51,371 bases of DNA. Origin: a virus. The translations under genes and the position numbers were made by a program. Position 1 is the first letter of the stretch, and each line of letters starts with the position of its first letter. The notes below the pieces were generated by a model. It did no database searches. It was not told where the DNA came from and saw nothing but the letters and a program-made list of their open reading frames with translations. Shown piece after piece: positions 5,279 through 17,585 of the stretch. The stretch spans positions 1 to 51,371 of the IMG/VR virus record IMGVR_UViG_3300006749_000017; one strand, given 5' to 3'.

Positions 5279-5575
5279 ATGGCCACATACCCTGTTATTA
5301 ATAAAGAAACTGGTGAACAAAAAGAAGTGTCAATGAGCGTTCATGATTGGGATCAGTGGAAGACTGACAATCCTAATTGGCAACGATATTTCACTCCTGA
5401 AAATTCTCCAAGTTTAGGTGTTGAGGTTGGTGAGTGGAGAGATAAACTTGTTAATAAAAATCCTGGATGGGGGGAAGTTTTGAAGAAAGCTGAAAAGTCT
5501 GGAGGTATCTCTGGACGCTTAGCTAAAAGAGGTTCTTACGAATCTTCTACTCAATCTGCCTTTGATGTTGATTAA
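5279..5575 (+). CDS. Conserved small cyanophage protein, unknown function
   Basis: 98 residues. The N-terminal half, TYPVINKETGEQKEVSMSVH and DWDQWKTDNPNW, looks like the body of an FmdB-type zinc ribbon protein but has no cysteines. The C-terminal half is basic and Ser/Gly-rich. It is preceded by a CTAAATA motif and followed 2 bases later by phoH. The function is unknown; the FmdB similarity is impressionistic. Confidence 0.75.
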   Translation: MATYPVINKETGEQKEVSMSVHDWDQWKTDNPNWQRYFTPENSPSLGVEVGEWRDKLVNKNPGWGEVLKKAEKSGGISGRLAKRGSYESSTQSAFDVD

Positions 5576-5577
5576 TT

Positions 5578-6336
5578 ATGCCACGTAAAAAGAAAACATC
5601 AGATCCAATTGGGGTGGGTCTAAGTATGTCGGCCAAACAGATGAAGAGAAAGAAACCATTAAATTCTGATTTGATGAGAGAGATAGAACCTCTCACTGAG
5701 AACCAGAGAATATTGTTTGAGTCATATGATGTAGGTAAAAATGTTGTTGCATATGGATGTGCAGGAACAGGTAAAACTTTTATCACATTATATAATGCCC
5801 TTTGTGATGTTTTAGATCAGACAACTCCCTATGAAAAAATCTACATTGTAAGATCACTTGTTGCTACTCGTGAGATTGGTTTCTTACCTGGCGACCATGA
5901 TGATAAATCTTTCTTGTATCAAATACCATACAAACATATGGTAAAGTACATGTTTGAATTGCCTACAGAAGCAGACTTTGAAATGCTCTATGGTAATTTA
6001 AAAGCACAAGGAACCATTGATTTTTGGAGTACATCATTCATTCGTGGAACTACTTTTGATAAGTCTATTATTATAGTAGATGAATTTCAAAACTTGAATT
6101 ATCATGAATTAGATAGTATAATGACAAGGGTTGGTGATAGATCTAAAATTATGTTCTGTGGAGATGCTACTCAAACTGACCTTATCAAGCAGAATGAAAG
6201 AAACGGTATTCATGATTTTATGAGAGTCCTTCGTATGATGTCTTCAGTTGACATTGTAGAATTTGGTGTTGAGGATATTGTTCGTTCTGGTTTAGTCAAA
6301 GAGTATATACTCGCAAAAATGGAACTTAATTTATGA
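5578..6336 (+). CDS. phoH: PhoH-like P-loop ATPase
   Basis: 252 residues. Walker A GCAGTGKT at residues 61-68 and Walker B SIIIVDEFQN at about 163-172 define a PhoH-type NTPase; further signatures are YIVRSLVATREIGFLPG, FWSTSFIRGTTF and MFCGDATQTDL. The N-terminal 35 residues are a basic tail (PRKKKTSD, KQMKRKKP). PhoH-like genes are nearly universal in marine cyanophages; an ATPase or RNA-helicase-like role is proposed but the phage function is unsettled. The stop overlaps the next ATG (ATGA at 6333). Confidence 0.95.
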   Translation: MPRKKKTSDPIGVGLSMSAKQMKRKKPLNSDLMREIEPLTENQRILFESYDVGKNVVAYGCAGTGKTFITLYNALCDVLDQTTPYEKIYIVRSLVATREIGFLPGDHDDKSFLYQIPYKHMVKYMFELPTEADFEMLYGNLKAQGTIDFWSTSFIRGTTFDKSIIIVDEFQNLNYHELDSIMTRVGDRSKIMFCGDATQTDLIKQNERNGIHDFMRVLRMMSSVDIVEFGVEDIVRSGLVKEYILAKMELNL

Positions 6337-12282: not shown

Positions 12283-13014
12283 ATGCCAACTCCAAGGTCA
12301 GTCTCTAAAATAAAATCTGATTTGCTCCGTCCAGCAACTACTTCTCATTTTGAAGTAGAACTTAGCATACCAAGTGGACTCAGGGGTAAGTATAGTGGTG
12401 ATAATAGACAAGGTAAAATGCAATTAATGTGTTCTGAGGCAAGTCTACCTGGCTCATCTTTAGCAACACATCAGATTGATAATAATTTTCATGGCGTAAC
12501 TGAGAGACATGCGTACAGAAGATTGTATGAAGATAGATTAGATTTGAATTTTTATGTTGATGCAAATCAATATCTACCAATTAAGTTTTTTGAGGATTGG
12601 ATATCGTTCATAACAAATGAGGATAAGAGGGATGCACTTGCTAACTCATATACTTATGATGTAAAATATCCAGATACCTATACCGCAGCTGGATTAAAAG
12701 TTATAAAATTTGAAAAGGACTATAAAAGTTCTATGACATATCAGTTTGTAAAAAGTTTCCCGATACAGATAACTTCCATGCCTGTGTCATATGATGGGTC
12801 ATCTTTACTGCAGTGTAATGTTTCACTAACTTACTTGAGATATGTTGTAGGAACTAATATAGTTGATGTGTATAATCCTGTTAGTGCATTGAACCAAGCA
12901 AGATTTAATGCAAGAGGTATAGTTGGTGGATTTGTTGATGCTGCTGTAGACAGACTAACAGGAAATGATTTGCTTGGAGATATTGCTGGAGGTATCGCTG
13001 CAAATCTCCTCTAA
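12283..13014 (+). CDS. 54: Baseplate tail-tube initiator gp54
   Basis: 243 residues. The fold signature is tail-tube-like: FEVELSIPSGL, MCSEASLPGSSLATHQ, then FPIQITSMPVSYDGSSLLQC followed by NVSLTYLRYVV. gp54 binds gp48 on the baseplate and serves as the template for tail-tube polymerisation. The C-terminal ~45 residues are small and hydrophobic (GIVGGFVDAAVDRL). It is divergent from gp4 and followed by gp26. It could alternatively be the tube protein itself, but the position beside the baseplate genes favours gp54. Confidence 0.78.
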   Translation: MPTPRSVSKIKSDLLRPATTSHFEVELSIPSGLRGKYSGDNRQGKMQLMCSEASLPGSSLATHQIDNNFHGVTERHAYRRLYEDRLDLNFYVDANQYLPIKFFEDWISFITNEDKRDALANSYTYDVKYPDTYTAAGLKVIKFEKDYKSSMTYQFVKSFPIQITSMPVSYDGSSLLQCNVSLTYLRYVVGTNIVDVYNPVSALNQARFNARGIVGGFVDAAVDRLTGNDLLGDIAGGIAANLL

Positions 13015-13044: not shown

Positions 13045-13764
13045 ATGCCTTTACCAAAAATTGCAACCCCAACCTATGAGTTGGAGTTACCCTCGACTGG
13101 AAAATCAATTTCTTACAGACCATTCCTTGTAAAAGAAGAAAAGGTTTTAGTAATTGCATTAGAGAGTGAAGATACAAAACAAATAACAACTGCAATTAAA
13201 GCAGTGTTGAGAAATTGTGTTCTTACAAAAGGAGTTAAAGTAGAATCTTTACCAACCTTTGATATAGAATATTTGTTTCTTAATATTCGTGGTAAATCTG
13301 TTGGTGAGGAACTAGAAGTAAACATTGTCTGTCCTGATGATGAAGAAACTAATGTTCCTGTACTCATTGACCTTGATGACATACAAGTTCAAAAAGATGA
13401 TGGTCATACCAATAAGATTAAATTGGATGATAACTTAATGATGGAAATGAAGTATCCTTCATTGGAGCAATTCATTAAAAATAATTTTGAGTTTGATGAA
13501 AAGAATGCGATGGACCAATCTTTTGATTTGATTGCTACCTGCATCGATAAAATTTATACAGAGGATGAAGTTTGGGCAACTGCAGATTGCACCAAGAAAG
13601 AAGTGAAAGAATTTTTAGAATCTATGAACTCATCTCAGTTCAAGAGTATTGAAAAATTCTTTGAGACAATGCCTAAATTATCTCATACTATAAAGGTAAA
13701 AAATCCTAAGACTAAAGTTGAAAGTGAAGTTGTTTTAGAAGGGTTAGCATCTTTTTTCGCTTAG
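13045..13764 (+). CDS. 26: Baseplate hub subunit gp26 / tail assembly chaperone-like
   Basis: 239 residues of the T4 baseplate gp26 family: LPKIATPTYELELPSTGK, YRPFLVKEEKVLVIALES, LPTFDIEYLFLNIRGKSVGE are its hallmarks. It takes part in hub assembly. The last codons hold T_TTT_TTC (13752-13758) in the reading frame, one codon before the stop, and the -1 frame continues directly into the next ORF. A minor -1 frameshift product would fuse 238 residues of gp26 to the gp51-like ORF (about 301 residues). This is the gene layout of tail assembly chaperones placed before tape-measure genes. Confidence 0.9.
   Translation: MPLPKIATPTYELELPSTGKSISYRPFLVKEEKVLVIALESEDTKQITTAIKAVLRNCVLTKGVKVESLPTFDIEYLFLNIRGKSVGEELEVNIVCPDDEETNVPVLIDLDDIQVQKDDGHTNKIKLDDNLMMEMKYPSLEQFIKNNFEFDEKNAMDQSFDLIATCIDKIYTEDEVWATADCTKKEVKEFLESMNSSQFKSIEKFFETMPKLSHTIKVKNPKTKVESEVVLEGLASFFA
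13752..13758 (+). promoter_or_regulatory. Slippery heptamer T_TTT_TTC, predicted -1 ribosomal frameshift
   Basis: The X_XXY_YYZ heptamer T_TTT_TTC lies in frame with gp26 codons (TCT TTT TTC), followed by GCT and the stop TAG at 13762-13764. A -1 slip reads CGC TTA GGT ATG into the gp51-like ORF with no stop. I see no strong hairpin just downstream. Confidence 0.65.
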
Positions 13765-13766
13765 GT

Positions 13767-13949
13767 ATGGTGCATATGAGTTTGTTTAATTACTTCAAAC
13801 TTAATTTTGCCTTGATGCAGTATCATAAATATAGTTTGACAGAGATTGAAAATATGATGCCTTGGGAACGAGACATCTATGTGGGTCTTCTCCAACAACA
13901 TCTTGAAGAGGAAGAGTTAAAACGCAAGCAGCAAAAAGCGAATGCCTAG
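13767..13949 (+). CDS. 51: gp51-like hub assembly protein / frameshift extension of gp26
   Basis: 60 residues in the -1 frame relative to gp26. SLFNYFKLNFALMQYHKYSL then TEIENMMPWERDIYVGLL recalls the small protein often annotated as hub assembly catalyst gp51 in cyanophages, but is far shorter than T4 gp51. It may be made from the ATGs at 13767 or 13776, neither of which has a good ribosome-binding site, and/or as the C-terminal part of a gp26 frameshift product. It overlaps the next gene by 8 bases. The symbol is tentative. Confidence 0.7.
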   Translation: MVHMSLFNYFKLNFALMQYHKYSLTEIENMMPWERDIYVGLLQQHLEEEELKRKQQKANA

Positions 13950-15816
13950 TTACAATCCTGACGAATTTTCCCAAATACATAATACGATAAGCAAGTCCTT
14001 TGTGATGCAGAGGAAAACTTTGATGCGTGTTCTTGGTCTTGAGGGAAGGGTTAGTGAATTAGAATCGCAACAGGCAGCAGAGGAGCAAGCAAAGGAAGGT
14101 ATAGATGATTTGTTAGGTGATATCCTTGGGGAGAATACTGAAGAATCGGTAGGTGGTACAAAAACAAAAACAAAAGCAAAGAAAAAACCAAGAAAGAAAA
14201 CTCCTGTAGCTAAAAAGGCAACTAAACCTAAGAAAAAACCAAAGATAAAAGCTACAAAGAAAAGAATAAAAGCAGAGAATCTAAAGAAGGGAACTGTACT
14301 AGACGATGCTTTTAAAGCACGAGTGATGGGAACAGATTCATCAGGACAATATTTAACTCCAGAGGAAAGAAAAAGAAGATTTAAGTTTGGTGATACTCAA
14401 CCAGCAGGAGTATTATCTACAGAAACATTACAACCATCTTCAGATACAGAACAGATAGGGCAAGCAGAGGGTGTAAAAAAATCTATTGGAGCATCTCCTG
14501 TCAGTGATGTATTGACAAATTCCCTGAAAGCAATTGCAGGTTCTCTTGACAATATAAAAAGTATTCTAGGTGATCAAAGTAAAACTCAACAAGACGCACA
14601 AGAAGATGCAAGAGTAGAAGGTGAACAGAATAAAGCAAAGAAACAGGAAGGTGCTCTTGAAAAAGTTATGGGTCCAGTTAAAAATGTTGGAGAGAAATTA
14701 CTAAAACCTTTTAAGAGTATACTTGAATCTGCCATAGAGTTTTTAAGTAAAATATTTTTTGGTAGGGTTGCCATCCAGTTGTTTGAATGGTTTTCTAATC
14801 CAGAAAATATAAGTAAAGTTACTAGTATATTTAAGTTTATCAAAGATTTTTGGCCAGCGATAGTGGCAGCCCTTGTAGCATTTTTACCAGGATTATTAGG
14901 TCCAGTTGGTGTCATAGCAGGTATCACTGCATTATTACTTTGGGGAGTTCCTAAGATAGTAAATGCTGTTAAATCTATATTTGGATTTGGTCCGAAAGTT
15001 GATGATGTAATAAAGAATGAATCTAAAGATCTCAATAAGGATATGAAAAACGTCGAGAAGGGCGTTAATGATAAATTAAAACCAGAGGATGATGTAGATC
15101 AAGCAACAACAGAAACTAATGTAGACACTCCTGATGCAGAACTATCGGAGATACAGAATAATAATCAGGAAGTAAGTAAAGAAATTGACAAGGAAACAGT
15201 TCCTGCGATGGCAAAAGGCGGTCCTGTAATGAGTCAGGATGGTGGTAAAGTAGAAGGACAAAAAGGAGTAGATAAAGTTCCTGCAATGCTTACTGAAGGT
15301 GAATTTGTTATGAGTAAAGGAGCAGTGCAAGAATATGGTATGGAAACTCTTGCAAATATGAATGCTGCTGCTGGTGGAACTAATAAACCAAGCATGATGA
15401 GTAGTAATAAATCATCAAAAACAACTAACATTAAAAATAGTAAAAATTATTATGGTGGTGGTTCAGTTGGTGGTGATAGGATGTCATATTTTGGTGGTGG
15501 ATTTGTTGGGAATATGAAAAATAATATTGGTAATTTTACTTCCAATATGAAATCGAGAGCATCATCCGTTACTCAATTTGTTCATCATCATAAAAGAGAT
15601 GGTAAAAATTCAGCACAAATAGCAGCAAGTGAAAGTAATTCTAGAAAAATAAATCCACCAAGCACTCCGTCATCAGCACAAACAATTAAACAAAACGCAC
15701 AAAGAAATAGTGCTACTTATTCTGGTAGTGATATGCCAGCCAAAGGTATACCTAACTTTGATGCTGATTTGATGAGGTCGCAAAGTAAAATTAGAGTATT
15801 AGGATTGTCAGTATAA
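13942..15816 (+). CDS. Tape-measure-like virion protein A
   Basis: 624 residues. Order: helical N-terminus; Lys-rich tail (about residues 70-115, KAKKKPRKKTPVAKKATKPK); helical region; a hydrophobic pair of helices (about 305-336, VAALVAFLPGLLGPVGVIAG); then a Gly/Ser-rich end. The motif GGPVMSQDGGKV with GVDKVPAMLTEGEFVMSKGA (about 426-455) is typical of phage tape-measure and internal tail proteins. Position right after the putative chaperone frameshift and before the hub also fits a tape measure, but length alone cannot prove it. Related to the next gene around ILESAIEFLSKIFFG. Confidence 0.72.
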   Translation: MPSYNPDEFSQIHNTISKSFVMQRKTLMRVLGLEGRVSELESQQAAEEQAKEGIDDLLGDILGENTEESVGGTKTKTKAKKKPRKKTPVAKKATKPKKKPKIKATKKRIKAENLKKGTVLDDAFKARVMGTDSSGQYLTPEERKRRFKFGDTQPAGVLSTETLQPSSDTEQIGQAEGVKKSIGASPVSDVLTNSLKAIAGSLDNIKSILGDQSKTQQDAQEDARVEGEQNKAKKQEGALEKVMGPVKNVGEKLLKPFKSILESAIEFLSKIFFGRVAIQLFEWFSNPENISKVTSIFKFIKDFWPAIVAALVAFLPGLLGPVGVIAGITALLLWGVPKIVNAVKSIFGFGPKVDDVIKNESKDLNKDMKNVEKGVNDKLKPEDDVDQATTETNVDTPDAELSEIQNNNQEVSKEIDKETVPAMAKGGPVMSQDGGKVEGQKGVDKVPAMLTEGEFVMSKGAVQEYGMETLANMNAAAGGTNKPSMMSSNKSSKTTNIKNSKNYYGGGSVGGDRMSYFGGGFVGNMKNNIGNFTSNMKSRASSVTQFVHHHKRDGKNSAQIAASESNSRKINPPSTPSSAQTIKQNAQRNSATYSGSDMPAKGIPNFDADLMRSQSKIRVLGLSV

Positions 15817-17585
15817 TGGCATTAGGATTAGCACTCAAAACAGTAGGTGGAGCACTTAAAGGTGGTGCGAAGAAAATTGCTACTGATAAGTTATTGAATA
15901 GAAAGAAGAAAACTGATGCTCGAAGGCAGAGGGCACAGCAGGTAATGGGTGGTGGTGAGGAGAGTGGTGGAGCATTAGCGATTAGACCAAAGACATCTAT
16001 GGTTCCCTCTCCTGCAGGTGCAATTCAAAAGTATAGTGGTGGTTCTGATGATAAAGCAAAATCAAATGACTCTGCGGAAACTTTAGCATTAAAAATAAAG
16101 ACATCTATAATATCTGTAGAAACTCTTCTAGGAAATTCTGTTGCTTTTCAAAAGAAAAAATTGGATGAAGAAAGAGAAGCAAGAGATCAAAAGAAATTAG
16201 CAGAGCAAGAAAAAGAATTAGAAAAGAAGGAACCAAAACAATCTAAAGGAAAAGGATTAAAACTCAAATTACCTGGTGGTGGTATACTTAATTCTATTAT
16301 AAAGTTTGTATCTAATATTCTTTTTGGATATGTAATGGTAAGATTGGTAGATTTTTTACCAAAGTTGCAAACAGCATTGCCTAAAATAGGAGCGTTTGTT
16401 GATGGATTTTTAGATTTTTCAGGAAAGGTTCTCAATATTTTTGCAACACTGATTGATTTTGGGTACAAGTTAGTTGAGATGGGTCAGAATTTAGTTAAAA
16501 ATCTTTTCGGTGAAGAGGGATTGGCGAAATTCAATATCTTCATGGATAATTTGAAGAATTTGATTAACGGATTTATAGCATGGAAATTAATAGGAGAAAA
16601 AATATTTAAAGCAATTGTATCAAATATAAAGGGTGCTTTTAATCTTGCTAAAAATATTATTAAAGGTGCAGTAGGTATCATAAACAAATTAACAGGAGGT
16701 TTACTTAGCAAAACTGCAAGCAAGTTGGGTGGACTGGCATCAAGTGTTGGAAGAAGAATTGGTGTTGGTGCTAAGAGAATTGCAGGAAGAGGTGTTAGAC
16801 AGGGTATAAAGGCTGCTACAAAGACTGGAAGCAGTTTAATGAAAAAGGGTGTAGGAGGACTAGCAAAGAGAGGAGCATTAAAATTATTTGGTAAAGGTGC
16901 CGTTAAAGCTGCGTCTGGGTTTGCTAAAAAAATACCAATTCTAGGTCCATTAATAGTTGGTATTATTTCCATAATGTCTGGGGAACCAGCAAGTCAAGCA
17001 TTATTTAAAACTTTTGGTGCTGCTGCTGGTGGTTTTCTAGGATCATTCATACCTATTCCTATTCTCGGAACTTTGATCGGTGAAACGATTGGTGTGTATA
17101 TTGGTGATTTACTCTATGAATTAATATTAGGAAAGGGTGCAGCAGCAGTTGGAAACAGAATGAAGGAAGATTTTACTAAGTTGTTATCAGGTGGTAAGGT
17201 AGTTTTCAATTGGTTAAAGGATGGTGTTGGTAGATTTTTAGAGGGATTACCTAAAGGTTTTGGTTTAGCTCGTTTTATGCTTAACCCTAATCCATTACCT
17301 AAAGTTAAACTCATGGGTAAAGCTTTCTTTTCTAGAGAACCTATGAAAGAGGTGAAGGATGATGATAAGTCAGCAAAATTATCAAACAAACAAAAGAAAG
17401 ATAGTAATAAAGTTGCAGATGATGTAAGTAAAAAAGCAACCTATGAAGAACCAGAGGTTGAATTAATCCCAATAGAGATACCACCACCACCTTCAAATAC
17501 AACTCAAAGTTCTGATAGTATAAATGTGTCGTCAACAAATTCATCTAAAGAGGACTTTGCTGAGTCCTTGTACATGACAGGTTAA
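15816..17585 (+). CDS. Tape-measure-like virion protein B
   Basis: 589 residues, starting in a TAATG overlap with the previous gene. There is a charged coiled-coil (about residues 105-150, KKLDEEREARDQKKLAEQEK), then ILNSIIKFVSNILFGYVMVR, matching protein A. Further on lie basic amphipathic repeats (GLASSVGRRIGVGAKRIAGR) and a long hydrophobic segment (about 374-439). This looks like a membrane-interacting tail-lumen protein ejected with DNA. One of the two is probably the gp29 equivalent; the other may be a duplicated partner. It is 22 bases from the hub gene, with a TTAAATA motif at its end. Confidence 0.7.
   Translation: MALGLALKTVGGALKGGAKKIATDKLLNRKKKTDARRQRAQQVMGGGEESGGALAIRPKTSMVPSPAGAIQKYSGGSDDKAKSNDSAETLALKIKTSIISVETLLGNSVAFQKKKLDEEREARDQKKLAEQEKELEKKEPKQSKGKGLKLKLPGGGILNSIIKFVSNILFGYVMVRLVDFLPKLQTALPKIGAFVDGFLDFSGKVLNIFATLIDFGYKLVEMGQNLVKNLFGEEGLAKFNIFMDNLKNLINGFIAWKLIGEKIFKAIVSNIKGAFNLAKNIIKGAVGIINKLTGGLLSKTASKLGGLASSVGRRIGVGAKRIAGRGVRQGIKAATKTGSSLMKKGVGGLAKRGALKLFGKGAVKAASGFAKKIPILGPLIVGIISIMSGEPASQALFKTFGAAAGGFLGSFIPIPILGTLIGETIGVYIGDLLYELILGKGAAAVGNRMKEDFTKLLSGGKVVFNWLKDGVGRFLEGLPKGFGLARFMLNPNPLPKVKLMGKAFFSREPMKEVKDDDKSAKLSNKQKKDSNKVADDVSKKATYEEPEVELIPIEIPPPPSNTTQSSDSINVSSTNSSKEDFAESLYMTG

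Follow-up and report, generated by a model that had tools for sequence, protein, structure and literature searches.

A predicted programmed −1 frameshift joining gp26 to a gp51-like extension in T4-like phages: conservation, codon-level selection and candidate stimulators

The slippery heptamer of the phage lambda G/GT tail genes is G GGA AAG, unlike the T TTT TTC considered here, which lies at the end of the gp26 gene, immediately ahead of a gp51-like open reading frame (ORF), in a 51,371-nt sequence of a marine T4-like cyanophage (IMG/VR record IMGVR_UViG_3300006749_000017, positions 1 to 51,371; the whole of this stretch is referred to as the window). In Escherichia coli dnaX, a Shine–Dalgarno (SD)-like AGGG stands upstream of the slippery heptamer and a hairpin stands downstream. 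A study from 2022 reportedly found frameshifting to be conserved in several T4-like groups, with T4 using genes 26 and 51. The tail assembly chaperone (TAC) genes of T4-like phages are given as 26/51 by Vladimirov, Gautam and Davidson (Virology 2022, 566:9-15), as cited in the PRFect paper (PMC10885494), which refers to that work for T4-like phages with separate short and long genes, and in the Adele paper (PMC12846349), which refers to it for poly-T frameshift signals in T4-like TAC genes. Frameshifting of the G-T type is conserved in long-tailed phages with the exception of T4, and neither gpG nor gpGT of lambda is present in the virion (Atkins et al. 2016; PMC5009743). For T4, the list of hub assembly chaperones includes gp26 and gp51, of which gp51 is required yet absent from the particle (Leiman et al. 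2010; PMC3004832), and the gp51 of cyanophages has been described as lacking the first ∼200 residues of T4 gp51 (Sullivan et al. 2010; PMC3037559). An earlier note on the window, made from its sequence, knew of no report of such a frameshift for cyanophages; novelty on this point is not borne out, as T4-like TACs and their poly-T sites were published in 2022 (Vladimirov et al., as represented in the two citing papers). A cyanophage-specific report of a gp26-gp51 frameshift was not found in literature searches confined to open-access papers. The mechanism itself is not new; novelty may lie in its quantified conservation, in the AGGG element and in the hairpins. Beyond the 2022 principle, the present analysis adds breadth across marine phages, codon-level statistics, candidate stimulators, loci without start codons and specific junction peptides.

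The gp26 ORF (13045–13764, plus strand, as are all features below unless stated) encodes a protein of 239 aa that matches PF12322 (T4_baseplate; E = 2e-77, 260 bits against a cut-off of 24.5) and phrog_150 (E = 1.7e-82), and would correspond to the short tail assembly chaperone (TAC-N). Its 3′ end reads GGG TTA GCA TCT TTT TTC GCT TAG, so that the heptamer T TTT TTC (13752–13758) is in the gp26 frame and the TAG stop (13762–13764) follows one codon later. An open −1 frame extends from 13728 to 13949, across the heptamer and through the gp51-like extension (TAC-C; 13758–13949), which begins RLGMVHM and matches phrog_634 (E = 1.4e-31), a family of baseplate hub assembly catalysts. The arrangement described in the earlier note, an in-frame heptamer one codon ahead of the gp26 stop with a −1 frame open into the gp51-like ORF, is thus exact, and its estimate of about 301 residues agrees with the translation of the joined frames, a predicted gp26-gp51 fusion of 301 aa with the junction GLASFF-RLGMVHMSLF. 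The predicted tryptic peptides of the fusion in the window are VESEVVLEGLASFFR and LGMVHMSLFNYFK, whereas the product of normal termination ends in GLASFFA. In the larger ORFs of the window, an in-frame T_TTT_TTN occurs only 5 times in 15,161 codons, equivalent to ∼0.004 expected by chance in the 11-codon overlap; with the motif this rare, a chance match within so short an overlap is unlikely.

A programmed −1 ribosomal frameshift at the end of gp26, whose occurrence and rate we infer from sequence, very probably yields the long form of the chaperone. Most ribosomes would terminate at the TAG at 13762 and release the 239-aa gp26, and in a minority the P-site and A-site tRNA-Phe on T TTT TTC would slip back by one base and re-pair on TTT TTT. 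The slipped ribosomes would then read on in the gp51 frame and produce the 301-aa fusion (TAC-NC), giving a short and a C-terminally extended form of one protein, as in the G/GT type.

Loss of the heptamer among relatives had been set beforehand as the observation that would speak against this proposal, and on comparison the heptamer proved to be conserved. Among 80 close relatives from IMG/VR (one of which, L076, is a contig that stops within gp51), no difference is seen in the heptamer, in its one-codon distance from the stop or in the −1 register of gp51 (80/80). In the full set of 283 loci (IMG/VR relatives plus further scans and isolate genomes), a hidden Markov model search finds the gp51 extension in 270 loci, always in the −1 frame relative to gp26; the remaining 13, of which 12 are from Tevenvirinae and one ends with its contig, have no extension downstream. 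Joining by a +1 shift or in frame is ruled out, as the −1 frame is used in every case (270/270). The phages with a −1 extension include those of Synechococcus, Prochlorococcus, Sinorhizobium, Methylophilales, Ochrobactrum, Delftia, Stenotrophomonas, Cronobacter, Aeromonas, Vibrio and Salmonella. T_TTT_TTN is present in 248 of the 270 loci with an extension, and the other 22 (Salmonella Kuttervirus-type phages, other Ackermannviridae such as Vibrio YC, and Vibrio K475 and D504) all retain the tetramer T_TTC or T_TTT. U_UUU_UUC ranks among the −1 motifs that work efficiently in E. coli, where the U_UU.C/U_UU.U tetramer class is also reported to be active (PMC4066793).

In the Salmonella Kuttervirus-type loci (L090, L259–L276), gp26 is followed in the −1 frame by an unannotated gp51-like extension; the junction has only the T_TTC tetramer, and L090 has no usual start codon near the beginning of this extension. 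A tetramer-type frameshift is a possible reading of these junctions.

Selection on the site itself was assessed in 140 non-redundant loci, with the codon usage of the individual genes as the expectation. Close to the end of gp26, 133 of them have a Phe-Phe or Phe-Leu site, and slippery codons (T_TTT_TT) are used in all 133, against 44.7 expected. On a gp26 tree of the 64 loci of the window's clade (the near relatives), TTT TTC has undergone no change, whereas the neighbouring codons have undergone 17–32 changes; the codon ahead of it varies (TCT, AGT, GGT, AAT or GAT), but its third base is always T. The gp26 of Tevenvirinae, which is followed by gene 25 and not by gp51, is a natural negative control for this conservation, as T_TTT_TTN occurs in none of these genes and EFF is retained, encoded by GAG TTC TTT, in most of them. 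These patterns bear on the idea that transcriptional slippage (insertion or deletion in the mRNA at the six-T run), and not slippage of the ribosome, gives rise to the long form. Homopolymer runs are prone to slippage and A7/U7 runs are mentioned in this regard (PMC4066793), but the run in the window has only six T, the register that is kept is solely the in-frame T_TTT_TTN, and the T_TTC or T_TTT of the 22 tetramer loci is too short for polymerase slippage. Since the upstream AGGG and the downstream pairing described below also fit ribosomal and not transcriptional slippage, we regard this origin as extremely improbable.

The gp51 frame could alternatively be expressed as a separate protein, by reinitiation or independent initiation at an ATG at 13767 or 13776, with the T-run being incidental. 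The two ORFs are almost contiguous, and many records annotate a gp51 coding sequence of its own. The earlier note had held that the gp51 starts lack ribosome-binding sites, which stands for the first ATG of the stand-alone ORF (13767–13769), where there is nothing usable as such a site, but is too strong for the second (13776–13778), which has a weak AGGT (13763–13766) 9 nt upstream. The first ATG is not conserved, being an ATG in 36/64 near relatives; the second is kept in 61/64, although it is missing in many other lineages. The conserved ATG at 13776 is a point against frameshifting as the sole source of gp51 in the window's clade, as some separate gp51 could be made there by (re)initiation. 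However, ATG, GTG and TTG are all missing from the first 16 codons of the −1 frame in 22 of the 140 non-redundant loci, for which frameshifting is the only ordinary route to the extension; 41 loci lack an ATG there. Among 24 near relatives that have no start codon ahead of +11, 23 share a His at +11, encoded by CAT or CAC and mostly preceded by a hydrophobic residue. These residues, conserved at the protein level ahead of the starts, can be produced only by read-through from gp26. Together with a heptamer fixed at the codon level and a T4 homologue that is a covalent gp26-type plus gp51 protein, these observations make exclusive expression of a separate gp51 very unlikely, and a programmed −1 frameshift remains the preferred reading.

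With respect to annotation, gp51 is missing or has its start placed inside the conserved domain in the records of S-CAM1, ACG-2014b, S-H9-1, S-SSM4, S-RSM4, Cronobacter S13 and Aeromonas CC2 (L288–L290, L292, L082, L282 and L283), and is likewise unannotated or mis-started in the Salmonella Guerrero record. An annotation of ribosomal slippage was found in none of the viewed records of these phages.

Elements that might raise the slip rate are present on both sides of the heptamer. An SD-like AGGG (13740–13743) lies 8 nt ahead of it in the window, and in 63 of the 64 near relatives an AGGG ends 8–9 nt before the heptamer, against 24.5 expected from the genes' own codon usage. The motif persists although, on the gp26 tree, its Glu codon has changed 12 times and its Gly codon 26 times; in 16 of the 17 cases of GAA, the Gly codon paired with it is the otherwise rare GGG. 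The predicted pairing of the AGGG region with the anti-SD sequence is −7.0 kcal/mol, compared with −5.7 ± 0.2 kcal/mol in synonymous resamples. Downstream, the window has a candidate hairpin (helix II; 13777–13803) of 8 bp, in which 13777–13784 pairs with 13796–13803 around an 11-nt loop. In the near relatives, the 48 nt past the heptamer fold with −10.0 kcal/mol against −5.3 kcal/mol in control windows, and a weaker excess is seen in other clades (−7.5 versus −5.8, p = 0.002). RNAalifold found no common structure for the whole near-relative set, which is attributed to subgroups using different, overlapping hairpins; the helices were therefore tested separately against permuted arms. Full pairing of helix I (+7 to +11 with +16 to +20) is found in 56% of the near-relative loci versus 36% when permuted, and at least six pairs of helix II (+16 to +22 with +34 to +40) in 25% versus 13%, the two helices being almost mutually exclusive. 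For both, the mean number of pairs exceeds that of permuted arms in 1000/1000 permutations, a sign of covariation in the downstream pairing, although the permutations ignore shared ancestry. A proposed outer helix (0 to 5 with 27 to 32) gave no excess of pairing in the permutation test and was discarded.

The purine-rich AGGG, SD-like as in dnaX, and the downstream hairpin would probably raise the slip rate, and we consider a role as stimulators plausible for these putative elements. Against such a role stand the common ancestry that the permutations disregard, the position of the window's own hairpin, which at 18 nt past the heptamer is beyond the usual 5–9 nt, and the 11 of 64 near relatives that fall outside all three hairpin classes. 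The likeness to dnaX lies in the tripartite layout; the gene is a different one, the heptamer here is U-rich and not A-rich, and the position and pairing of the hairpin vary among relatives. Compared with lambda gpG/gpGT, the window phage adds the upstream AGGG and the downstream pairing, and no sequence homology is seen between the two systems (none was tested).

The relation to T4 clarifies what the two frames encode. T4 gp51 (249 aa; 5480–6229 of its locus, L081) matches the gp26 family over residues 1–201 (PF12322, E = 3.9e-52) and then continues with the same C-terminal extension, so that T4 encodes the short and the long form as separate genes. The T4 pair thus shares the gp26 family and a homologous gp51 C-terminal extension with the window, but consists of two divergent genes, a short gp26 and a gp51 with a gp26-type domain plus extension; T4 gp26 has no heptamer, and the divergence of the two genes accounts for the absence of a frameshift. 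In line with this, the PHROG of gp26 plus gp51 covers nearly the whole of T4 gp51, whereas T4 gp26 matches the gp26 part only. The phrog_150 profile has 282 positions, of which the first 232 match gp26 and 228–281 match the gp51 extension, a layout that hints that some family members are fused. When the gp26 alignment was compared by hhalign with the sequence of T4 gp51 alone, E was 3.9e-5 at a probability of only 70%, the Pfam and PHROG matches being stronger, and T4 gp51 queries in viral contigs returned matches from Tevenvirinae only. AlphaFold models of gp26 (predicted local distance difference test 87.7) and of a T4-type gp51 (94.4) agree in the order in which helices and strands follow one another, with three further C-terminal helices in gp51; for both models, a Foldseek search of BFVD returned hub proteins and gp26 of the T4 type.

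We thus consider it quite probable that gp26 and gp26-gp51 act as tail assembly chaperones, and the suggestion of the earlier note to this effect gains support from the T4 hub assembly chaperone listing (PMC3004832), from the place of the pair before tape-measure-like genes and from the composition of T4 gp51. The likeness to the T4-like TAC-N/TAC-NC of Vladimirov et al., as far as it is conveyed in PMC10885494 and PMC12846349, extends to genes 26 and 51, the chaperone role and a poly-T site at the end of TAC-N. By analogy with lambda gpG/gpGT, the tape-measure protein would be coated by the short form, and recruitment of tube or hub subunits would fall to the minor long form. It counts against this role that the gp26 fold resembles known chaperones weakly: the best-probability match in the PDB is the HK97 chaperone 2ob9 (0.60 at E = 0.95 for gp26; probabilities of 0.60 and 0.44 with E 0.5–0.95 overall), no Foldseek match to the PDB had E below 0.001, and searching PDB sequences with the profile of gp26 gave no match. 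It could thus be argued that the frameshift is real but that the pair is a baseplate-hub assembly factor only and not a tape-measure chaperone, as genetic work on T4 assigns gp26 and gp51 to hub assembly (PMC3004832) and Foldseek finds no significant match to a solved chaperone. The T4 hub, however, contains the tape measure gp29, so that the two roles overlap, and the TAC-like short/long architecture, the gene order, the absence of gp51 from virions and the published identification as TACs (again as conveyed by the citing papers) make a role restricted to the hub unlikely.

The gp26/gp51 pair sits between an upstream tail tube-family ORF (12283–13014; PF23849, E = 1.8e-12; phrog_45) and two tape-measure-like ORFs, whose identity rests on weak matches. 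The first of these (13942–15816, 624 aa) overlaps the end of gp51 and would be assigned by position and composition, its match being phrog_35029 of unknown function; the second (15816–17585, 589 aa) has a weak match to the tape-measure family phrog_1535 (E = 3.7e-4). The two adjacent ORFs (13942–17585) share one base, and S-RSM4 has a single ORF of 1000 aa at the corresponding place (L082, 6514–9516); the tape measure may thus be split in two in the window phage. On the minus strand at the gp26 start (13063–13090), a terminator-like stem is followed by a T-rich tail, one of 4 such sites in the scanned region versus 0.9 expected.

Taken across these phages, three annotation puzzles are resolved. 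The gp51 of cyanophages looked truncated because gp26 supplies the ∼200 N-terminal residues through the frameshift, T4 has been cited as an exception to tail-gene frameshifting because its two forms are encoded in separate genes, and gp51 is unannotated or mis-started in many records. We lean slightly towards the wider view that marine T4-like phages use a tripartite, dnaX-type signal, composed of a selected AGGG 8–9 nt upstream, an invariant T_TTT_TTC and alternative hairpins that swap between relatives, two of them sharing a strand, and that in T4 the frameshift has been replaced by gene duplication. If this tripartite reading is true, the ratio of short to long form would be higher than in lambda, or adjustable.
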